From assembly GCF_024158605.1 (NCBI RefSeq), contig NZ_JAMZGM010000020.1, positions 1 through 51,451 on the forward strand: a stretch of DNA of 51,451 nt. The letters run 5' to 3'. Both the position numbers and the translations under genes were made by a program. Positions 16,702 to 47,993 of the stretch are shown piece by piece. The notes below the pieces were generated by a model. The model was not told the origin of the DNA. It did not search any database and saw nothing but the letters and a program-made list of their open reading frames with translations. The stretch's first letter is position 1, and each line of letters opens with the position of its first letter. This DNA comes from Sebaldella sp. S0638. GTDB taxonomy: Bacteria; Fusobacteriota; Fusobacteriia; Fusobacteriales; Leptotrichiaceae.

Positions 16702-16893
16702 TAAATAGAAAATATATGAAAATAATTATATTTAACAAAATATAATTTATTTAAACTTTATATTTATAAAAAATAATGTTATAAGTAAAATATGATTTTA
16801 ATAAAGGAGATGATATATCAAAAAAATGAAAAAAAACTACCAAAAACTACCAAAAAACAAAATCAGTATAAAAGTGAGTTTCAGGAGGAATTT

Positions 16894-19800
16894 ATGAGAA
16901 GAAATGAAAAATTATTATTATCTTTTTTAGCCTTGAATGCCGCAGTATCTATGAATGCCAGTGCTGCGGAAAATCAGCTTACAGCTAAGTATGACAGGCT
17001 TTATGAAAGTATGATAAAGAATATTAAAAGTGGAAAATCTAATGATAAGGCATATCAATTACTAGAAAGAACGCTCAACCAAAGAAATAAGGAATTAAAA
17101 GACTTATATTTGCAGAGTGATTTTGTGGTAAAACCGGAATATCTCGAATGGCAGATATTTTTCAGCGGTTTTTATACAGAACAGAACAGAGGAGATAATA
17201 CTCTGGAAAATGCTGAATTTTATTCTAAGCCAAAAACGCACAGCAGTGCAATAAAACAAAATCAGGAAGCTTATGACAGAATGGAAGCAGAACTGAGAAA
17301 TACCGGACTTCTTTCAGCATCACAATTAGAGTCAATAATGGGCGGATATTACAATGTGATAAATGAATTAGACGTACAAAATCAGGAAATAATAAGAAAT
17401 ATACTGGATAACGGACTAAAGTATATAACTAAAATAGATGGTTTTAAGAGTTATCAAAGTCCGCAGAAACCAAAAGAAATCGATCTCGGAATAAATATAA
17501 CACCAAAGGTAATAAACAGAAATCCTTTGAACCCGGCACCATCAATACCGGCAGAACCAAATATAGTATTACCTGACTTTACACCTGATGTTCCTGTGTC
17601 ACCCACAGTACCGACACTTACAATTAAAGCTTTTAATCCTGTGTCACCTGTACCTGTAGTGCCTAATACAACAACACCGCCGAATCTGACATTTATACCA
17701 ACAGGTTTTGGTCAGGATCAAATGTATATAATTCAGAACAGCAGCGGTCAGGGGATAATGTTTGGAAATCAGGAAGAAATAGAAGCAGTGGGAACAGTAA
17801 ATGTATCAGCTGGTTCGACAACTTCTTTTACCGGTACTATAAACTATATACAGGGAGGAACTCCTTTATCACTGACAAACGGAGCCTATGGTTCTGTGAC
17901 TAATGCATTTTACAGTATGGTAAATAACTCTGATGTTAATATAAAAGGAAATTTTAACATACAGAATACAGATACATTTTCATCAAATACATATCGTTTT
18001 ATAAGTTATAATCCTTATAATGTAACCAGTCAGGGAATTAAAGTGGATTTTAGCGGAACAATGGACTTGAATGGGAAGACTACAGGGAATTCAGTTCTTG
18101 TAGGTGTGGAGCATCAGTTGTTATATGGTAATGGAAGCGGGACCAGTCCTGCCATGCTAACAGGATATTCCACTTTTGAGAATACAGGAACGATAAATCT
18201 GGCATCGGGAACACAGGTAATAGGGATTATGGTCGATTCAGAGGGGACACAGTCACCGTATAAATCTTATACAATAAATTCGGGGACAATAAATGTAAAT
18301 AATACTGAAAGTATAGGAATAGATTTTGGAGCATATGTGGGAAATCCTGCTATGGGCGGGACATATGCAGCAGGAGATTTAAATGGGAAACCATATACAG
18401 GTCATCCAAATGTAGAAGTAAGACCCGGAAACATTAATGTAAACGGAAGTCTGAATTACGGGCTAAGAGTACAGGATCTATCAAACAGTCCGGATTCATG
18501 GTATGGAGGGGTATTAGGTGCTGACTACTATGAATATGCAGAGATTGACGGATCAAACGGGATAATAACAGTTGCCGGGACAAATAATGTAGGGGTATCA
18601 TTTTCACAGAAAATAGCAACAGCAGCTTCTACAGATCCCATAGGAAATGTAAGAAACTTGAGAGTAGTTCTTGATGGGACAAACGGTGTAGGAGTTTTGA
18701 GAAGAGGAGATTATCTTAACACTCAAACTGAGGATATGGTTTTAGGAAGCACTCATCTAAGCCTTTTGGAATTTGATGACAACGCAACGGGCGGAGTTCT
18801 CATAAGATCTGACTTTAAAACAGTGGCTCTGGACAGAGATCTAACAATAAGCAAGGGAAATGGAAATAATACTGTAATGCAGTCAAACGGAACAGATACA
18901 TTAATAAGACTTAATACAGGAAAAACCATAAATATAAACTCAGGAATAGATACAGTGACGGGAATGCTGGCATCTAACAACGGATCATTGACAAATAACG
19001 GAACAATAAACCTAGGAGCGGAAAACTCACAGGGAATTGCAGTTTTGAGCGGTTCAAGCGGTCTGAATACAGGCACTATAAATTCAAGCGGTAATAATTC
19101 CGTTGGTATTTATAATGAGGGAACATTCAGCATGACAGGAGGAACTGTAGATATATCTTCCAATAAAGGAATAGGGCTATATACCAAAGATAACACTGTA
19201 AGCACAACAATATCAGGCGGAACAATAATTTCATCTAACGGAGCAATAGGTCTTTATGCAGACGGACCGAATTCAGCAGGAGGAGCAACGGTAAATCTTA
19301 CGGGAACTGCGAATCTTGTTGCCAATAGCGGAGGACTAATGCTGTATAATTACTCATCAGCAGGAGATGCAGTAGGGAAATTTAATGTAACTGGTACAGT
19401 TAATGCAGCAGTGAATTCTAACGGGACAGCATTTTACTTTAAAGGAGTACCGGCAGGAATAAATGCATTTTTAACAAATATGATAACAGGAAGCGGAAAA
19501 TTAAATATAAAACTGACAGATTCGACTTCAAGTCTTTTTGTACTGGATAATCCCGGAAGTATAATCAATCTAAGTGACGCTACACCGGAAGGAATAGCTG
19601 GAAGTCTTCCGTCAACAGTAACAATAGATGCTTCAAGCAATCCGAATTACAAACCGTATTCGGTATTCAAAGGCGGATTAAACATAGATCTGAATGTTAA
19701 TATAGATAATGGAAATGATGCATATAACAGATCAGAATTTATTTCTTCAAAAGTGGAACTGTTAAGCGGAAAAACAATGACAGGAACACTTGCAGGGCAG

Positions 19801-22800
19801 TATGCAATCGGGCAGGAAAGCTATCTCGGAAATACAGGAAGAAATGATATAACAATAAATGTAAATAACGGATCGAAAATAAATATGTCAGGTACAGGTT
19901 CTGTGGGGATAGTAGTTAACTATGGTGAAGTTCTGAATAACGGTGAAATATCAGCTGTGGGATCAGATTCTATAGGAGTAGTGGCATATAACGGTTCTTT
20001 TATAAGAAATAACGGAAAAATAACTGTAGGTGCAGGCGGCGTGGGAATATACGGAGAAAATAAAGTAAATCCTGATTACGGAAATGGAAAAATAGAAATT
20101 GAAAATGATGGTATAATCAATTCAATTGCTGCAACAGGAGGAAGAAGCTACGGTGTATTTGCCAATAATACTGAAACATCAGTATCAAGAGCAGATTCTA
20201 CAGTAAAATTATTCTCAAATTCTAATATAGATATGTCAGCACAGACAGGCGGAATAGGAGTTAGTGCCAAAAAGTCAACAATAACTAATGACGGAAAAAT
20301 AACAGTAGGAAAAGACGGAATTGCATTTTATACAGAAGACAGTGAAGTAACAATAAACGGCGGGGAAATTAACCTGAAAGGTGACGGAGTAGTAGGCTTT
20401 TACATGACAGACAGTATTTTGAACGGAAATTCCGGAACAATAAACATAGACGGAAAAAATATCGTGCTGTTTCACATGCTGAATTCTACTTTTACCAATA
20501 ATCTTACTATAAATGCTGCAGCGGGTTCATCGTATATTATAGGGAATATGACAAATACAACTTATACTTATACAGGTACCCAGAGTCTCGGATCGGGAAG
20601 TACACTGCTAAATGGTATTGACTCGGCTATTTTATTCGATTCATCCGCAAATATCAGCTCAGCGGGAACAGGTGTAGTTGCTCTTTTACTAAACGGGCAA
20701 TATACAGGAGGATTTGTATCTCCATATTCAGTGGAAGGGGAAAATAAAGGAACAATAAGCCTTGGTAATGATTCAGCTGCTATATATGGTAAAAACGGTG
20801 CAAGACTTTCAAATACCGGAACTATAAGTGTAGGAGAATCTTCCGTGGGACTTTATGCACTAGGTTCAGGGGCAGATGTAAAAAATACCGGAACAATTAA
20901 TATAGGTAAGAATTCCACTGGATTGTACCTAAGAGGCGGACAAGATATAGTAAATAATAATATTATAGCGGGTGCCGGTTCAGGATCAATCGGAATGTAC
21001 ACAGACAGTAATACCGGAATTGTGGAAAATAATAATGCTATAGACTTATCAGGAGATAAAGTAATAGGAATATATTCGGTAAACGGAACACAGAATATAG
21101 TAAATAACGGTACGATAAAAATCGGAAATTCAGGAAGCACTGATGATCCGGGAATTGGAATATATACAAAAAGTCTTACAGACACTATAGTAAATAACGG
21201 AACTATAGAAACAGGAACAAAAGCTCTGGGAATCTACAGTCTGGGAACTTCTGTAACTCAAAATGGTATAATAAAAGTCGGAGACGAAGGAACAGGTATA
21301 TATAAAGAGCAGGGAATACTGGATATAAATAACGGTGCACAGATTTTAATAGGAAATAATGAAGCTGTGGGATTGTATGCGGTAAATAATGCAACTGTAA
21401 ATATAAGACCTACAGCGGTAATGAGCATAGGATCGGGAAGTTACGGTACTATACTTGAAAACGGTTCTAGTTTATGGAATCAGGCTGCAGTGACACTATC
21501 GGATAACAGTATATTTACATATGGAAATAAAGCAAGTTCAATAATAAATGACGGTCAGATAAATATGACCGGCTCGGATAATACAGCTTTTTATATGGTA
21601 AAAGCTGGAAGTATACTGAATAATGCCAATATTACAGGCACTGCTGGAACAGGAAATATAGGAATATATAACAGAGGAATCTATGCTGTGGAAGAACTTC
21701 AGGGAGATCTTATGAAGCTGGAAGGTCTTCAGACTGAAGGAGTAATAATAAATGATGCTGATATTACATTGGGGAATTCAAATCTGATAGATATGGGCAA
21801 TGGACAGAAAACAGGATATTCTGTGGGTATTTATGCCGAAGGTGCTACGGTGGAGAATAAAGCAGGAAGAACTATTACTGTGGGTGAAGACGGCGTAGGT
21901 ATGTATGCGAAAGATGCATTTACTGCATCATATAACTATGGAACAATTATAGGTAACGGGAACAGAGCCATAGGAGTATTTGCAGATAATACGAGAGTAG
22001 AAAATCATGGTAAAATAATCATGACCGGTGATGATGTAATAGGAATGGCAGGAAGAAACGGGGCACAAATTTATAACGCTGCAAGCGGTGAAATATATGT
22101 TACGGGTAAAAATGTAACAGGAATTTATCTTGCAGGAGGAACGACAACAGTAGAAAATCACGGGAAAATCATAATAACCAATACAGGAGGCGCTGATGAA
22201 AACGGCGTAGGAATACGTTATACTTCTGACTTTAATACTTCAAACATAATTGGAGGAGCCGGGAATATAAGCGGAACAGGTTATGTGGAAACCGGATTTA
22301 CTTCAAAAAGTTATGAGCTTCCGGAACTGCCTACATTAATAAACTCTGGAGAAATAATAATAGATGTAGCAAATAAATTCTCATATGAAAATATGAAAGT
22401 TATCGTAAAAGTAGATCCTTCTACGAATCAGGCTACTACAAATGCTTCAAGCCAGGTAGGTTTCGGAGGAAGTACAATACCGGACAAACTTGAGATAACA
22501 CCTGATTTTTCCCAAGGAACTTCTGCTGACAGATATGTTCTTCAGAATATATTCAGAGGGCTTGACGGAAAAGGACAGTATATAAGCCAGTCGTTAACAT
22601 GGGATGCTACAGGACAGGGGTCTGACATAGTTATGACAAGAATATCATATGATAAATTTACTGACGGACTTTGGTATGAAGACTTTGGAAGAATTCTTAA
22701 TGAGAAATATGCGGGGCAGACAGGCGACGGATTAAAAGTATTTGATAAAATAGACATGATTCAGTCTGAGCCTGAATTCAGACACGCTATGGCAAGTCTT

Positions 22801-23751
22801 GCAGGAAATGTGTATGCGAACATAAATCAAAGAGAGGCAGATATAGCATCGATTTTCTCAAACTCAAATGATTTAATGCAAAATTCTGGAAATAACACAA
22901 AAGAAAACTTGAAAATAAATGTAATAGCCGGAAGAGGAAGAACAAATGAAGATACAGACGGAGTTGTACCTTATGACTATACTACAGCAGGTGTACTGGC
23001 TCTTAGAGAGGTGGAAAGAACTTACAGACACACATTCGGTTACTCGCTTGGGTATCTGCATACAGGATTTGAATTCAAAGATGATAACAAAAGTGAAGAA
23101 TGGGTAGATACAATTCAGCTTGGTCTTCATAATAAATATGAGACAAACGGATGGAAACTGAGAAATGACCTTACAGGAAGAGTAAGTTTACATAATATAG
23201 ACAGAAATATTGACTGGCCTTCACCTGTGGGCAGATCAGAAATGAACGGAACTTACGAAACATATTCGGTAACTTTGGATAATATTATCGGGAAAGAAAT
23301 ACCTGTAGGGAAGAAATTCAGCGTAACACCATACGGGGCATTCAAGGCAATGTATGTTACAAGACCGACATTCAGCGAAAGCGGACTTGAAAGGCTGGAA
23401 GTAGAAGGTAATGATGCATGGAGTGCAAAGCCGAGAGCAGGTGTAGAATTAAAAACATCTGTGCCTTTAGGGTCGAAATCTGCATGGGAACTGAAAGGAG
23501 CGCTTGACCTTGCTTATGAGTATGAACTGGCAGGATTAAACGAAAGGGAATATGCGAAACTTATTGCGGTGGAAGATGATTACCACAAGCTGTCAAAACC
23601 TGAAGAGGAAAAAGGAACTTTCAGGGCAAGGGCTTCTGTGGGAGTGGAAGTAACAGACAGATACGGAGTTTTTGTTACTGGTGAATACGGAGTAGGAAAT
23701 AAAGATCAGGATGACTACAAAGTAGGGATAACACTTAAAGCTGTATTTTAG
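16894..23751 (+). CDS. giant autotransporter adhesin (type V secretion), 2285 aa
   Basis: The frame is open from 16792, but AGGAGG at 16883-16888 and a signal peptide (MRRNEKLLLSFLALNAAVSMNASA, cut before AEN) fix the start at 16894. Next come an alpha-helical N-terminal region (to about residue 175) and a proline-rich linker (about 195-265, repeated PxxP such as SPVPVVPNTTTPP). A passenger of about 1,700 residues follows, made of degenerate beta-helix repeats of the form NxGTIxxGxxSxGIY. The last 280 or so residues are the outer-membrane barrel, ending KVGITLKAVF with the terminal Phe. It is exported by Sec, inserted by BAM and displayed as a surface fibre, likely for adhesion. The gene has two candidate promoters and a terminator. 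Confidence 0.93.
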   Translation: MRRNEKLLLSFLALNAAVSMNASAAENQLTAKYDRLYESMIKNIKSGKSNDKAYQLLERTLNQRNKELKDLYLQSDFVVKPEYLEWQIFFSGFYTEQNRGDNTLENAEFYSKPKTHSSAIKQNQEAYDRMEAELRNTGLLSASQLESIMGGYYNVINELDVQNQEIIRNILDNGLKYITKIDGFKSYQSPQKPKEIDLGINITPKVINRNPLNPAPSIPAEPNIVLPDFTPDVPVSPTVPTLTIKAFNPVSPVPVVPNTTTPPNLTFIPTGFGQDQMYIIQNSSGQGIMFGNQEEIEAVGTVNVSAGSTTSFTGTINYIQGGTPLSLTNGAYGSVTNAFYSMVNNSDVNIKGNFNIQNTDTFSSNTYRFISYNPYNVTSQGIKVDFSGTMDLNGKTTGNSVLVGVEHQLLYGNGSGTSPAMLTGYSTFENTGTINLASGTQVIGIMVDSEGTQSPYKSYTINSGTINVNNTESIGIDFGAYVGNPAMGGTYAAGDLNGKPYTGHPNVEVRPGNINVNGSLNYGLRVQDLSNSPDSWYGGVLGADYYEYAEIDGSNGIITVAGTNNVGVSFSQKIATAASTDPIGNVRNLRVVLDGTNGVGVLRRGDYLNTQTEDMVLGSTHLSLLEFDDNATGGVLIRSDFKTVALDRDLTISKGNGNNTVMQSNGTDTLIRLNTGKTININSGIDTVTGMLASNNGSLTNNGTINLGAENSQGIAVLSGSSGLNTGTINSSGNNSVGIYNEGTFSMTGGTVDISSNKGIGLYTKDNTVSTTISGGTIISSNGAIGLYADGPNSAGGATVNLTGTANLVANSGGLMLYNYSSAGDAVGKFNVTGTVNAAVNSNGTAFYFKGVPAGINAFLTNMITGSGKLNIKLTDSTSSLFVLDNPGSIINLSDATPEGIAGSLPSTVTIDASSNPNYKPYSVFKGGLNIDLNVNIDNGNDAYNRSEFISSKVELLSGKTMTGTLAGQYAIGQESYLGNTGRNDITINVNNGSKINMSGTGSVGIVVNYGEVLNNGEISAVGSDSIGVVAYNGSFIRNNGKITVGAGGVGIYGENKVNPDYGNGKIEIENDGIINSIAATGGRSYGVFANNTETSVSRADSTVKLFSNSNIDMSAQTGGIGVSAKKSTITNDGKITVGKDGIAFYTEDSEVTINGGEINLKGDGVVGFYMTDSILNGNSGTINIDGKNIVLFHMLNSTFTNNLTINAAAGSSYIIGNMTNTTYTYTGTQSLGSGSTLLNGIDSAILFDSSANISSAGTGVVALLLNGQYTGGFVSPYSVEGENKGTISLGNDSAAIYGKNGARLSNTGTISVGESSVGLYALGSGADVKNTGTINIGKNSTGLYLRGGQDIVNNNIIAGAGSGSIGMYTDSNTGIVENNNAIDLSGDKVIGIYSVNGTQNIVNNGTIKIGNSGSTDDPGIGIYTKSLTDTIVNNGTIETGTKALGIYSLGTSVTQNGIIKVGDEGTGIYKEQGILDINNGAQILIGNNEAVGLYAVNNATVNIRPTAVMSIGSGSYGTILENGSSLWNQAAVTLSDNSIFTYGNKASSIINDGQINMTGSDNTAFYMVKAGSILNNANITGTAGTGNIGIYNRGIYAVEELQGDLMKLEGLQTEGVIINDADITLGNSNLIDMGNGQKTGYSVGIYAEGATVENKAGRTITVGEDGVGMYAKDAFTASYNYGTIIGNGNRAIGVFADNTRVENHGKIIMTGDDVIGMAGRNGAQIYNAASGEIYVTGKNVTGIYLAGGTTTVENHGKIIITNTGGADENGVGIRYTSDFNTSNIIGGAGNISGTGYVETGFTSKSYELPELPTLINSGEIIIDVANKFSYENMKVIVKVDPSTNQATTNASSQVGFGGSTIPDKLEITPDFSQGTSADRYVLQNIFRGLDGKGQYISQSLTWDATGQGSDIVMTRISYDKFTDGLWYEDFGRILNEKYAGQTGDGLKVFDKIDMIQSEPEFRHAMASLAGNVYANINQREADIASIFSNSNDLMQNSGNNTKENLKINVIAGRGRTNEDTDGVVPYDYTTAGVLALREVERTYRHTFGYSLGYLHTGFEFKDDNKSEEWVDTIQLGLHNKYETNGWKLRNDLTGRVSLHNIDRNIDWPSPVGRSEMNGTYETYSVTLDNIIGKEIPVGKKFSVTPYGAFKAMYVTRPTFSESGLERLEVEGNDAWSAKPRAGVELKTSVPLGSKSAWELKGALDLAYEYELAGLNEREYAKLIAVEDDYHKLSKPEEEKGTFRARASVGVEVTDRYGVFVTGEYGVGNKDQDDYKVGITLKAVF

Positions 23752-24274: not shown

Positions 24275-25534
24275 TTAATTTGTGATAATATAATTTTTAT
24301 ATTTTTCAATGTCGCTTTTACGACATTCAACAGTAATTTTTGTGCCGTTTTCTTCATGCTTTATGTCAAGAACAGAAGCATTTTCACTAAAATGTGATAC
24401 TATTTCACCTTTGTTATACGGAATCAAAAATACAGCTTTCTCATAATTCTGAAAAATTTTCTCATAGATCTTTTCAAGAAGTAAATCCAGACCGATATCT
24501 TTTTTCGCAGAAATATAGATGGAATCTCCGTCATCTTCGGGAATTTCTTTTTCAGTGAGATCTGATTTGTTATAAACATATACAACCGGTACATCTTTTA
24601 TTCCGACTTCAGCAAGAGTGGAATTAGTGGTTTCCATCATATTTTTGCAGTGAATGCTGGAATAGTCCACCACATGAATAAGCAGATCAGCCTCACGGAC
24701 TTCCTCAAGAGTAGAACGGAAAGCCTTTATCAGATGATGGGGCAGATTACTCACAAATCCAACAGTATCAGTAAGAAGAAATTTCTTCTTATCTGGAAGT
24801 GTGATATTTCTGACACTAGTTTCAAGTGTGGCAAAAAGCATATCTTTTTCAAATACTTCCTTGCTTTCACCTTTATTAAATTTATTAACGAATTTATTCA
24901 TAATAGTAGATTTTCCGGCATTAGTGTATCCTACAAGGGAAACAACGGGAATCTGATTCTTTTTACGCTGTTTACGCTGAATACTTCTCTCTTTGATTAC
25001 ATTTTCCAGTTCTTTATTAAGCAGCTGAATACGGTGTTTTATAGTTCTGTAATTGATCTCCAGCTTTGTTTCTCCGGCTCCTCGGTTGCTGGTACCGGAA
25101 GCACCGCTTTGCTGATCGAGCTTTTCATCACGGCTGGTACGCATTCTTGGAAGCTCATATTGAAGTCTTGCAATTTCTACCTGAAGCTTTGCTTCTTTGG
25201 TTTTAGCCCGCTTATAAAAAATATCCAGAATAAGCTGTGTTCTGTCTATGACTTCTACATCCAGAAGCTCTTCAAGGTTTCTTATCTGATACGGAGAGAG
25301 TTCATCATTAAATATAACCATGTCAACACCTGTCTCAGATGTAATATCTTTTAATTCATCAATTTTACCGCTGCCGAGATAATGTCCCGCATGTATTTTG
25401 TCAAGGCTCTGTACAAGTCTTTCAGTAACATTGATATTATTGGCATGAGCAAGATTTTCCAGCTCATCCATCATATAATCAAAGTCTTTTTGATTATTTA
25501 TTTTTACTCCTATAATAATTGCATTTTTTGTCAT
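24275..25534 (-). CDS. hflX: HflX ribosome-associated GTPase
   Basis: 419 residues. An N-terminal HflX domain (about 1-175, LVQSLDKIHAGHYLGSGKIDEL and a conserved SGASGTSNRGAGETKLE segment at its end) precedes the GTPase domain: G1 VGYTNAGKST (about 205), G3 DTVGFVSNLPHHLIKAFRST, G4 YNKSD, and a C-terminal extension. HflX splits stalled or stressed 70S ribosomes into subunits; some homologues (HflXr) give macrolide/lincosamide tolerance. AGGAGG precedes the leftward ATG. No good promoter is visible in the 135 bases just upstream; the closest one lies beyond a leader containing a small ORF and a terminator (see 25671-25909), suggesting attenuation control. Confidence 0.95.
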   Translation of the reverse strand: MTKNAIIIGVKINNQKDFDYMMDELENLAHANNINVTERLVQSLDKIHAGHYLGSGKIDELKDITSETGVDMVIFNDELSPYQIRNLEELLDVEVIDRTQLILDIFYKRAKTKEAKLQVEIARLQYELPRMRTSRDEKLDQQSGASGTSNRGAGETKLEINYRTIKHRIQLLNKELENVIKERSIQRKQRKKNQIPVVSLVGYTNAGKSTIMNKFVNKFNKGESKEVFEKDMLFATLETSVRNITLPDKKKFLLTDTVGFVSNLPHHLIKAFRSTLEEVREADLLIHVVDYSSIHCKNMMETTNSTLAEVGIKDVPVVYVYNKSDLTEKEIPEDDGDSIYISAKKDIGLDLLLEKIYEKIFQNYEKAVFLIPYNKGEIVSHFSENASVLDIKHEENGTKITVECRKSDIEKYKNYIITN

Positions 25535-25670: not shown

Positions 25671-25695
25671 AAAAAAAGATAGTCAGTAACTATCT
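25671..25695 (-). terminator. intrinsic terminator inside the hflX leader
   Basis: Read leftward: AGATAGT (25695-25689), loop TACTG, ACTATCT (25683-25677), then six further T. It is a perfect 7-base stem located 137 bases before the hflX start. An upstream AGTCTATC (25766-25759 region) could pair with GATAG and ACT of the left arm (two-base bulge) as an antiterminator. Confidence 0.85.
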
Positions 25696-25808
25696 AAAAA
25701 TTTATAAAATAAATTGTACGCTATAAAAACAGGAGCGTAAATCATTCGCCGAAATTCGGATAGACTAATACACCTCTGAGCAAACAGAGTTTTTGCATAT
25801 TTAATTGT

Positions 25809-25844
25809 TTAATCATTTTGCATTTTTAATTTAGCAATCCACAT
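25809..25844 (-). CDS. candidate hflX leader peptide (11 aa, MWIAKLKMQND)
   Basis: Leftward ORF of 11 codons plus TAA in the hflX leader. GGAGG (25859-25855) precedes the ATG by ten bases, slightly long but usable. Residues 5-7 are K-L-K, fitting the +X(+) pattern (basic, any, basic) known to arrest macrolide-bound ribosomes, and placed about as close to the start as the R-L-R of Erm leader peptides. That it is translated and that it stalls are inferences. Confidence 0.5.
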   Translation of the reverse strand: MWIAKLKMQND

Positions 25845-25880
25845 CGCGAACAATCCTCCAGTCCTTTTAATATCAAGTTT

Positions 25881-25909
25881 ATAATAACACATATTTATCG
25901 TAAATGCAA
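25881..25909 (-). promoter_or_regulatory. promoter of the hflX leader
   Basis: Leftward TTGCAT (25909-25904), 17-base spacer, TATTAT (25886-25881); predicted start near 25874. The region 25910-26086 between it and the next rightward gene holds only a weak rightward TTTACA-15-GATAAT (25993-26019). Confidence 0.65.
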
Positions 25910-47832: not shown

Positions 47833-47861
47833 TTGACACAATGTAAAATTACAGGTATTAT
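47833..47861 (+). promoter_or_regulatory. promoter of the riboswitch-permease transcript
   Basis: TTGACA (47833-47838), exact 17-base spacer, TATTAT (47856-47861), giving a start near 47868, just before the riboswitch. Confidence 0.75.
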
Positions 47862-47876
47862 AATTATGAAAAAAGT

Positions 47877-47993
47877 TAACCATATAATCTTGAAATAAGG
47901 TCAAGAGTTTCTACAAACTGCCGATAACAGTTTACTATGGGGAGTTTTAATATTTTAAAACTATTAAACCCCATGAAGTAATGGGGCTTTTTT
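47877..47993 (+). promoter_or_regulatory. guanine-class purine riboswitch with transcription terminator
   Basis: P1 CCATA (47880-47884) / TATGG (47936-47940); P2 CTTGA / TCAAG with loop AATAAGG; J2/3 containing GTTTCTAC; P3 AAACTG / CAGTTT with loop CCGATAA; J3/1 ACTATG. The specificity base (position 74 in B. subtilis numbering) is C at 47935, so guanine/hypoxanthine, not adenine. Expression platform: ATGGGG (47937-47942), which contains the 3' side of P1, can instead pair with CCCCAT (47969-47974) around a perfect AGTTTTAA / TTAAAACT hairpin, forming an antiterminator. With ligand, P1 frees CCCCAT for the terminator. Predicted off-switch for the permease. Confidence 0.95.
47969..47993 (+). 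terminator. riboswitch-controlled terminator
   Basis: CCCCAT (47969-47974), loop GAAGTA, ATGGGG (47981-47986), C, then six T. Its left arm is shared with the antiterminator described for the riboswitch. Confidence 0.92.

Follow-up and report, generated by a model that had tools for sequence, protein, structure and literature searches.

A predicted ribosome-mediated transcription attenuator of the macrolide-resistance type upstream of hflX in Sebaldella

Introduction

In Sebaldella sp. S0638, the gene hflX is preceded by a leader that contains an 11-codon open reading frame (ORF), several potential helices and an intrinsic terminator, raising the question of whether a ribosome translating the small ORF decides if transcription proceeds into hflX and, if so, which drugs or stresses would be sensed. 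Control by ribosome stalling has precedents. The uORFC-6-1 motif, an upstream ORF with a conserved Arg-Leu-Arg and a covarying fold, is reported before hflX in 51 representatives, predominantly Bacillales, and its authors propose that stalled ribosomes regulate it in the manner of antibiotic-resistance leaders (RNA Biol 2021, PMC8632094). Attenuation of rli80-hflXr (lmo0762) is described as shown in Listeria monocytogenes (PMC6310831), erm(K) is cited as being under transcriptional attenuation (PMC4335068), and ErmDL stalling is presented as structurally solved (PMC8298421).

The window, i.e. the whole stretch of DNA analysed here, spans 51,451 nucleotides of contig NZ_JAMZGM010000020.1, from an assembly of 4.27 Mb in 292 contigs. 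A first-pass annotation, made from the letters alone, had proposed leader-peptide attenuation of the MLS (macrolide-lincosamide-streptogramin) type with a K-L-K motif as its signal. This proposal was examined through predicted folds, comparison within the genus, a covariance model of leaders from other bacteria, and the phylogeny of HflX itself. Away from the locus, the window holds a 2319-aa repeat-rich ORF beyond the hflX 3' end (16792-23751, plus strand), autotransporter-like by eye, and a purine riboswitch (RF00167, 67.9 bits; 47860-47957, plus strand).

Results

Layout of the leader and its conservation in the genus

All elements described here lie on the minus strand. The promoter named by the first-pass annotation, read directly from the DNA, is present at 25881..25909 (TTGCAT at 25909-25904, 17 nt, TATTAT at 25886-25881), with the qualification that it is weak by consensus (8/12) and absent from the promoter-scan list. 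As to the accompanying statement that no other promoter is convincing, the scan lists two further minus-strand matches, each 9/12 (25741-25713 and 25659-25631); its total of three sites over both strands lies below the shuffle mean (4.8 +/- 2.1), and the stretch holding the 25659-25631 match is, by eye, not conserved in a second Sebaldella genome (G003).

A GGAGG Shine-Dalgarno sequence (SD; 25855..25859), kept in three genus genomes and ten other leaders, precedes the ORF MWIAKLKMQND (25809..25844), whose eleven codons and stop (ATG TGG ATT GCT AAA TTA AAA ATG CAA AAT GAT TAA) were confirmed by direct reading. Between SD and start codon lies the 5' arm of a long-range helix, P1 (25846..25856), whose 3' arm occupies 25739..25749; the nine-pair helix noticed earlier (25854-25846 with 25749-25741) exists and extends to 25856-25846 with 25749-25739. 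Part of the SD (GGAG) is also paired in the minimum-energy fold, its partner being CUCC at 25735-25732. In the predicted fold, ORF codons 2-5 (25831..25841), a putative anti-antiterminator strand, pair with 25768-25757 to form helix P2, and the hairpin P3 (CUCUG/CAGAG) spans 25774..25789. The downstream strand of P2, UUAGUCUAUCCG (25757..25768), is the presumed antiterminator and has a core conserved in three genus genomes. An intrinsic terminator follows at 25671..25695, with an 8-pair stem (25695-25677) and then six T. Its stem is kept in all three genomes; the epithet "perfect" was too strong, the terminator being A+T-rich (-6.1 kcal/mol) and unlisted by a terminator scan requiring three G-C pairs. 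The hflX gene (24275..25534; 419 aa) has its own AGGAGG.

Among the other genomes of the genus, G003 and G002 contain hflX, and both (2/2) have the leader before it with the whole layout; neither gene nor leader was found in a further same-genus genome, G001, which is 86% complete. The leader ORF has 11 codons in all three, reading MWIAKLKMQND in the window, MWIIDLRMQND in G003 and MIFIRLRFQNV in G002. By eye, the promoter is TTGCAT-17-TATTAT in G003 and TTGATT-17-TATAAT in G002, the 17-nt spacing being common to the three, and SD, P1, P3 and terminator are likewise maintained. P1 is built as GUUCGC:GCGAAU in the window and G003, and as GUUCACU:AGUGAAU in G002; both pair, and the difference reads as a compensatory change that preserves the helix. 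When 60 relatives were searched at the DNA level, 22 genomes matched at E <= 0.001; the matches outside the genus, 21-71 bases long, were rejected as chance in A+T-rich sequence.

The leader folds only mildly better than its shuffles (z -2.2; 7/200 equally good), and P1 taken singly is paired equally well by shuffled 3' arms in 18/300 (window), 11/300 (G003) and 15/300 (G002) cases. Because the fold reaches only this z score and P1 alone is matched by 18/300 shuffles, the argument is a comparative one and does not draw on the stability of the fold. The predicted fold has a long-range helix and a compact junction, which might also suggest a riboswitch binding a metabolite or a protein, with the short ORF incidental. 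This explanation is highly improbable: Rfam gave zero matches to the window leader at E <= 10 (and zero at E <= 1 for the leaders of loci L025, L054, L058 and L066), the ORF keeps its frame and its length across the genus, and the homologous leaders described below are, in the accounts cited here, shown or proposed to be ribosome-stalling leaders.

Homologous leaders before resistance genes and hflX

A search with an HflX alignment gave 48 loci, and the upstream regions of 47 were scanned for leader ORFs. An RLR-type leader ORF with the same RNA precedes hflX in Compostibacillus (L054) and in a Thermoactinomycetaceae MAG (L058), and the same RNA with K-F-R precedes it in Anaerocolumna (L066). 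By BLAST, the L054 leader matched 21 plasmid records, seven of which were examined (L102-L108). Downstream of the leader, L105 encodes a macrolide 2'-phosphotransferase, L106 a predicted ErmD, L108 Mef(F)-Msr(G), and L103 and L104 each an SDR oxidoreductase; L102 has no annotated gene there and the L107 record ends too early. The two SDR leaders, on an Acinetobacter plasmid (L103, 2477-2591) and a Latilactobacillus plasmid (L104, 2473-2587), have the upstream ORF MIDILTLNR, in which the RLR part is missing; the Acinetobacter-plasmid copy lies near an IS26 transposase gene. In the Listeria hflX record (L101), the same RNA lies upstream of hflX with the peptide MRYIRLRFPKNLCN, which fits the 14-aa RLR ORF described for rli80 (PMC6310831).

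A covariance model, R1, was built from ten non-Sebaldella leaders (Listeria hflXr, ErmD, Mph, Mef(F) and others), its structure being limited to P2 and P3, as the cross-phylum MAFFT alignment misaligned the P1 arms and P3. R1 recovered the window leader at 32.6 bits (the best match in the window; next 11.2), that of G003 at 34.2 and that of G002 at 64.2. Recovery of all three by a model made without them, together with the layout shared in the genus, sets the leader apart from a chance arrangement. In the Sebaldella sp. S0638 genome, the leader is the only match at E <= 1 (E 0.016). Under strict filters, with which weak matches are lost, R1 found the three Sebaldella leaders and marginal matches in G058, G061 and G089 (E 0.6-1.0) over 120 relatives, and over 98 Fusobacteriota genomes only the three Sebaldella leaders at E <= 0.5, each before hflX. 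The uORFC-6-1 motif, as described in the available text of its paper, probably belongs to the same family as R1, judging by gene, order and motif.

The R1 leader is absent from most of the 48 hflX loci: matches at E <= 1 occur in four of them, namely that of G002 (L053) and L054, L058 and L066, these last three all being R1 seeds, and a weak match in L091 sits far from hflX. None of the 27 other fusobacterial hflX loci (L026-L052, up to 1.5 kb per side) has one. Two hflX loci have leaders of other kinds. A Paraclostridium plasmid (L109, 1266-1445) carries, by eye, the upstream ORF MMVICRGIFFLRLRG and an inverted repeat before the hflX start, with no evident T-run, perhaps indicating translational attenuation; rlmN lies downstream and R1 gave no match. 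In Fusibacter (L077, 2746-2881), hflX stands behind a K-L-R upstream ORF (MKLRDYSMIKVNKRNYR) and a terminator that do not form the R1 RNA, possibly an independent attenuator.

Within the order to which Compostibacillus belongs (Bacillales or a lineage split from it), 109/299 genomes match R1 at E <= 0.01. Thirty loci were taken from the best-scoring genomes of that order, a choice that leans to the R1 seeds (L134 is seed L054 again). A downstream ORF is present in 25 of these 30, and by NCBIfam they comprise HflX (3), RlmA/TlrB-type 23S rRNA methyltransferases (5), Mef-like (6), Msr-like ABC-F (7) and Mph (3) proteins and one sugar ABC transporter ATPase, most matches scoring under the curated cut-off for the named protein and therefore indicating family likeness only. 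The last, an RbsA-like ATPase behind an R1 leader at L149 (1501-1637), is the sole one of the 25 without an evident ribosome-drug link.

These neighbourhoods bear on the possibility that the same attenuator is tuned to general translation trouble, such as heat, starvation or several drug classes, with hflX as an all-purpose rescue factor. The finding of a single HflX in the genome, the relaxed +X+ motif of G003 and the description of HflX as a heat and stalled-ribosome factor in the available text of PMC6310831 would fit such a role. Against it, the RNA family precedes genes resembling macrolide-resistance genes or hflX in 24 of the 25 classified best loci, and the leader lacks the run of codons for a single amino acid that is typical of amino-acid attenuators; we consider general tuning unlikely.

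Covariation and predicted switching of the helices

Since its arms were misaligned across phyla, P1 was tested by comparing the pairing energies of each leader's own arms with those of arms swapped between leaders. Over 15 distinct arm pairs from 42 leaders, own arms averaged -12.5 vs -7.9 kcal/mol for swapped arms (permutation p 5e-5, with kinship ignored; the G003 row stands for the window, whose arm is identical, and the 3'-arm stretch is misplaced for L158); over 12 leaders the values were -12.7 vs -7.0. P1 thus behaves, across the family, as a covarying long-range helix.

P2 and P3 appear conserved and not covarying. Together they are paired in 92% of cases over the 42 leaders vs 27-60% when slid, and P3 by itself in 98% of cells, but no covariation measure in these leaders rose above column shuffles. 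For P2, own arms gave -10.5 vs -8.6 for swapped ones over 12 leaders (permutation p 2e-4); measured against synonymous recodings of the ORF, p was 0.41 in the window, 0.054 in G003 and 0.38 in G002, with a Fisher p of 0.004 over the 12 leaders and 0.057 over eight less redundant ones. That covariation proves P2 was accordingly rejected as a claim, the shuffles being unexceeded and the window P2 no better than its recodings. The pairing of the ORF with the presumed antiterminator forms in the free folds of all six leaders tried, and that of codons 2-5 with 25768-25757 parallels the pairing of the RLRF codons in Firmicutes leaders.

The presumed antiterminator can pair as UUAGU-CUAUC with the terminator 5' side GAUAG-UU-ACUGA (ten bases, -6.9 kcal/mol). 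When the RNA was cut before the terminator 3' arm, this pairing reached 8.6 expected pairs with the SD and first codons blocked vs 0.0 with the RNA free. Under that blocking it forms in 5/6 leaders, L058 showing none in any state. With a simple stall footprint on the window leader it yielded only 0.7 expected pairs, because P1 and the antiterminator pairing are non-nested and the folding program excludes pseudoknots. In equilibrium folds the terminator persisted whether or not a stalled ribosome was modelled; the ErmD leader behaved likewise, so that such folds are uninformative on this point. Across 12 leaders no covariation between antiterminator and terminator was detected (p 0.15), in a weak test since the automatic choice of terminator looks wrong for L101 and L108.

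The stall motif

By eye, 39/42 leaders have a +X+ motif; G003, with D-L-R, and both SDR leaders, with MIDILTLNR, do not. K-L-K occurs in 1/42, the window itself, which is also the only K-x-K; D-L-R in 1/42; most others have R-L-R at the same place. The earlier view of K-L-K as the essential signal is contradicted by the genus, in which the site reads K-L-K, D-L-R or R-L-R. An alignment with relatives had been proposed as a check for conserved K/R-x-K/R codons and covarying stems: the small ORF is conserved and P1 covaries over the family, but K/R-x-K/R is lost in G003. Because the motif is unconserved, it does not decide the stall codon or the drug range.

According to the available text on ErmDL, arrest occurs with Leu7 in the P site and Arg8 in the A site; the ketolide arrest requires the two basic residues, a single replacement of Arg6 by Lys being tolerated, and the erythromycin arrest depends little on +X+ and more on the preceding residues, above all Ser4 (PMC8298421). 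By analogy, K-L-K would be compatible with the ketolide route. The Sebaldella peptides lack the residues that precede the motif in ErmDL and have I3-A4 or I3-I4 instead.

Such drift could mean that the leader is a degenerate relic, which came with the gene, has lost drug stalling through the K-L-K and D-L-R changes, and retains a terminator that merely lowers basal hflX expression. The rarity of both motifs agrees with this, as do the R1 scores of 32.6 and 34.2 bits in the window and G003 vs 64.2 in G002 and 100 or more in 38/42 leaders, a set that includes the ten seeds and the 30 best loci of the search. Decay is nevertheless improbable in our judgement, less probable even than general tuning, given that three genomes share the ORF length, SD, P1, P3, terminator and promoter, and that P1 was rebuilt with other bases in G002; in ErmDL, moreover, Arg6 to Lys is reported as the one single change that preserves the response to the ketolide, and stalling by erythromycin as depending little on +X+.

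Type and origin of the Sebaldella HflX

The window gene matches TIGR03156 at 428 bits (cut-off 217). Among solved structures its closest relative is 8a57_D (E 3.9e-148; next 2.7e-74), labelled GTPase HflX in the structure table, and 8a57 is, we take it, Listeria HflXr. The window protein and the Listeria HflX encoded in L101 share 56% identity. In an unrooted tree of 47 rows, built without Listeria's own canonical copy and with two long rows present (L091, L128), the three Sebaldella HflX, L101 and two Lactobacillaceae form a clade of six (100/98), and 13 other fusobacterial HflX fall in another, 26-row group (97/87) with second copies of five Bacillota genomes (L129-L133). A tree constrained to hold every fusobacterial HflX in a single clade was rejected at p-AU 4.1e-5 (45 rows, L091 and L128 dropped). 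Of 33 genomes from the family, 28 gave no HflX at E <= 1e-60. Sebaldella sp. S0638 yielded only one, its other two matches being weak (E 4.6e-5 and 9.1e-4).

HflXr is described as having a longer loop, the HD-loop, than canonical HflX (PMC12493154). In three rows compared by eye, the stretch from LPR to RGAGE, which probably corresponds to this loop, is 20 residues long in the window, one more than in Listeria HflXr (19) and three more than in Compostibacillus copy 2 (17), the pattern being absent in 15/47 rows; DQQ is common to the window HflX and Listeria HflXr. By sequence, the Sebaldella HflX is of the HflXr type, grouping with Listeria HflXr and not with other fusobacterial HflX. Gene gain from Bacillota is the simplest reading, and leader and gene may have arrived together. 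A fuller scenario is advanced only tentatively: leader and HflXr may have crossed from Bacillota to Fusobacteria as one unit, which became the genus's only HflX and whose sensor peptide is now changing (RLR, KLK, DLR), so that related species answer different drugs. If it were true, RLR and KLK would answer ketolides and macrolides, and DLR at most cladinose macrolides.

Discussion

Homology to resistance leaders, conservation within the genus and a covarying long-range helix give good support to the attenuation proposed at first. Our main reading, with a probability of about 85%, is that transcription into Sebaldella hflX, a gene of the HflXr type, is attenuated through the ribosome by a leader belonging to the MLS-resistance family of Firmicutes. 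Without drug, the 11-codon ORF would be read fast, codons 2-5 would re-pair with 25768-25757 as P2, closed by P1 and P3, and with P2 formed transcription would stop at 25695-25671. A drug in the ribosome exit tunnel (a macrolide, probably also a lincosamide) would stall the ribosome on the leader; Leu6 would most likely occupy the P site and Lys7 the A site. The stalled ribosome would then cover the ORF strand of P2 and leave 25768-25757 free to pair with the terminator 5' side; RNA polymerase would continue into hflX, and HflX would split stalled ribosomes. Stalling, stall codon, antiterminator, inducing drugs and benefit are what we infer from the comparisons, and macrolides or lincosamides are fairly probable, though less so than attenuation itself, as the inducers that act on MWIAKLKMQND.

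This reading predicts inducible macrolide or lincosamide tolerance in Sebaldella. It would extend ribosome-stalling control of hflX, described in Listeria and other Bacillales, to Fusobacteria, and tie it to a gene gained from outside the phylum. The natural variants of the stall motif (RLR, KLK, DLR) in similar leaders also make the contribution of +X+ directly testable for each drug. In agreement with the first-pass annotation, no account of such a leader in Fusobacteria was found in the literature searched (open-licence papers, supplements excluded), and the available text of the uORFC-6-1 paper names Fusobacteria once, in a list of the phyla studied (PMC8632094).

Among known systems, the TlrB/YxjB leader of Bacillus subtilis, compared by description, resembles that of Sebaldella in its drug-induced leader-peptide stalling, terminator and ribosome-related product, but in the available text its authors describe pausing together with a hairpin that sequesters the SD, and no overlapping antiterminator was identified (PMC6851288). 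The erm(K)/ErmD leader of Bacillus licheniformis (MTHSMRLRFPTLNQ; L106) shares the RNA layout and P1 with Sebaldella and differs in its 14-aa peptide and in controlling a 23S rRNA methyltransferase. Listeria rli80-hflXr, as described, has the order predicted here for Sebaldella, with leader ORF, anti-antiterminator in the ORF region, terminator and then HflXr; its record L101, itself an R1 seed (73.1 bits), has a 14-aa RLR peptide before hflX. The Sebaldella peptide, in contrast, has 11 residues and K-L-K, the terminator and antiterminator sequences differ, and Listeria possesses a second, canonical hflX where only one hflX was found in the Sebaldella genome. The kind of attenuator is already known from erm(K), rli80-hflXr and uORFC-6-1; what is new is the phylum, Fusobacteria, and the altered stall motif.
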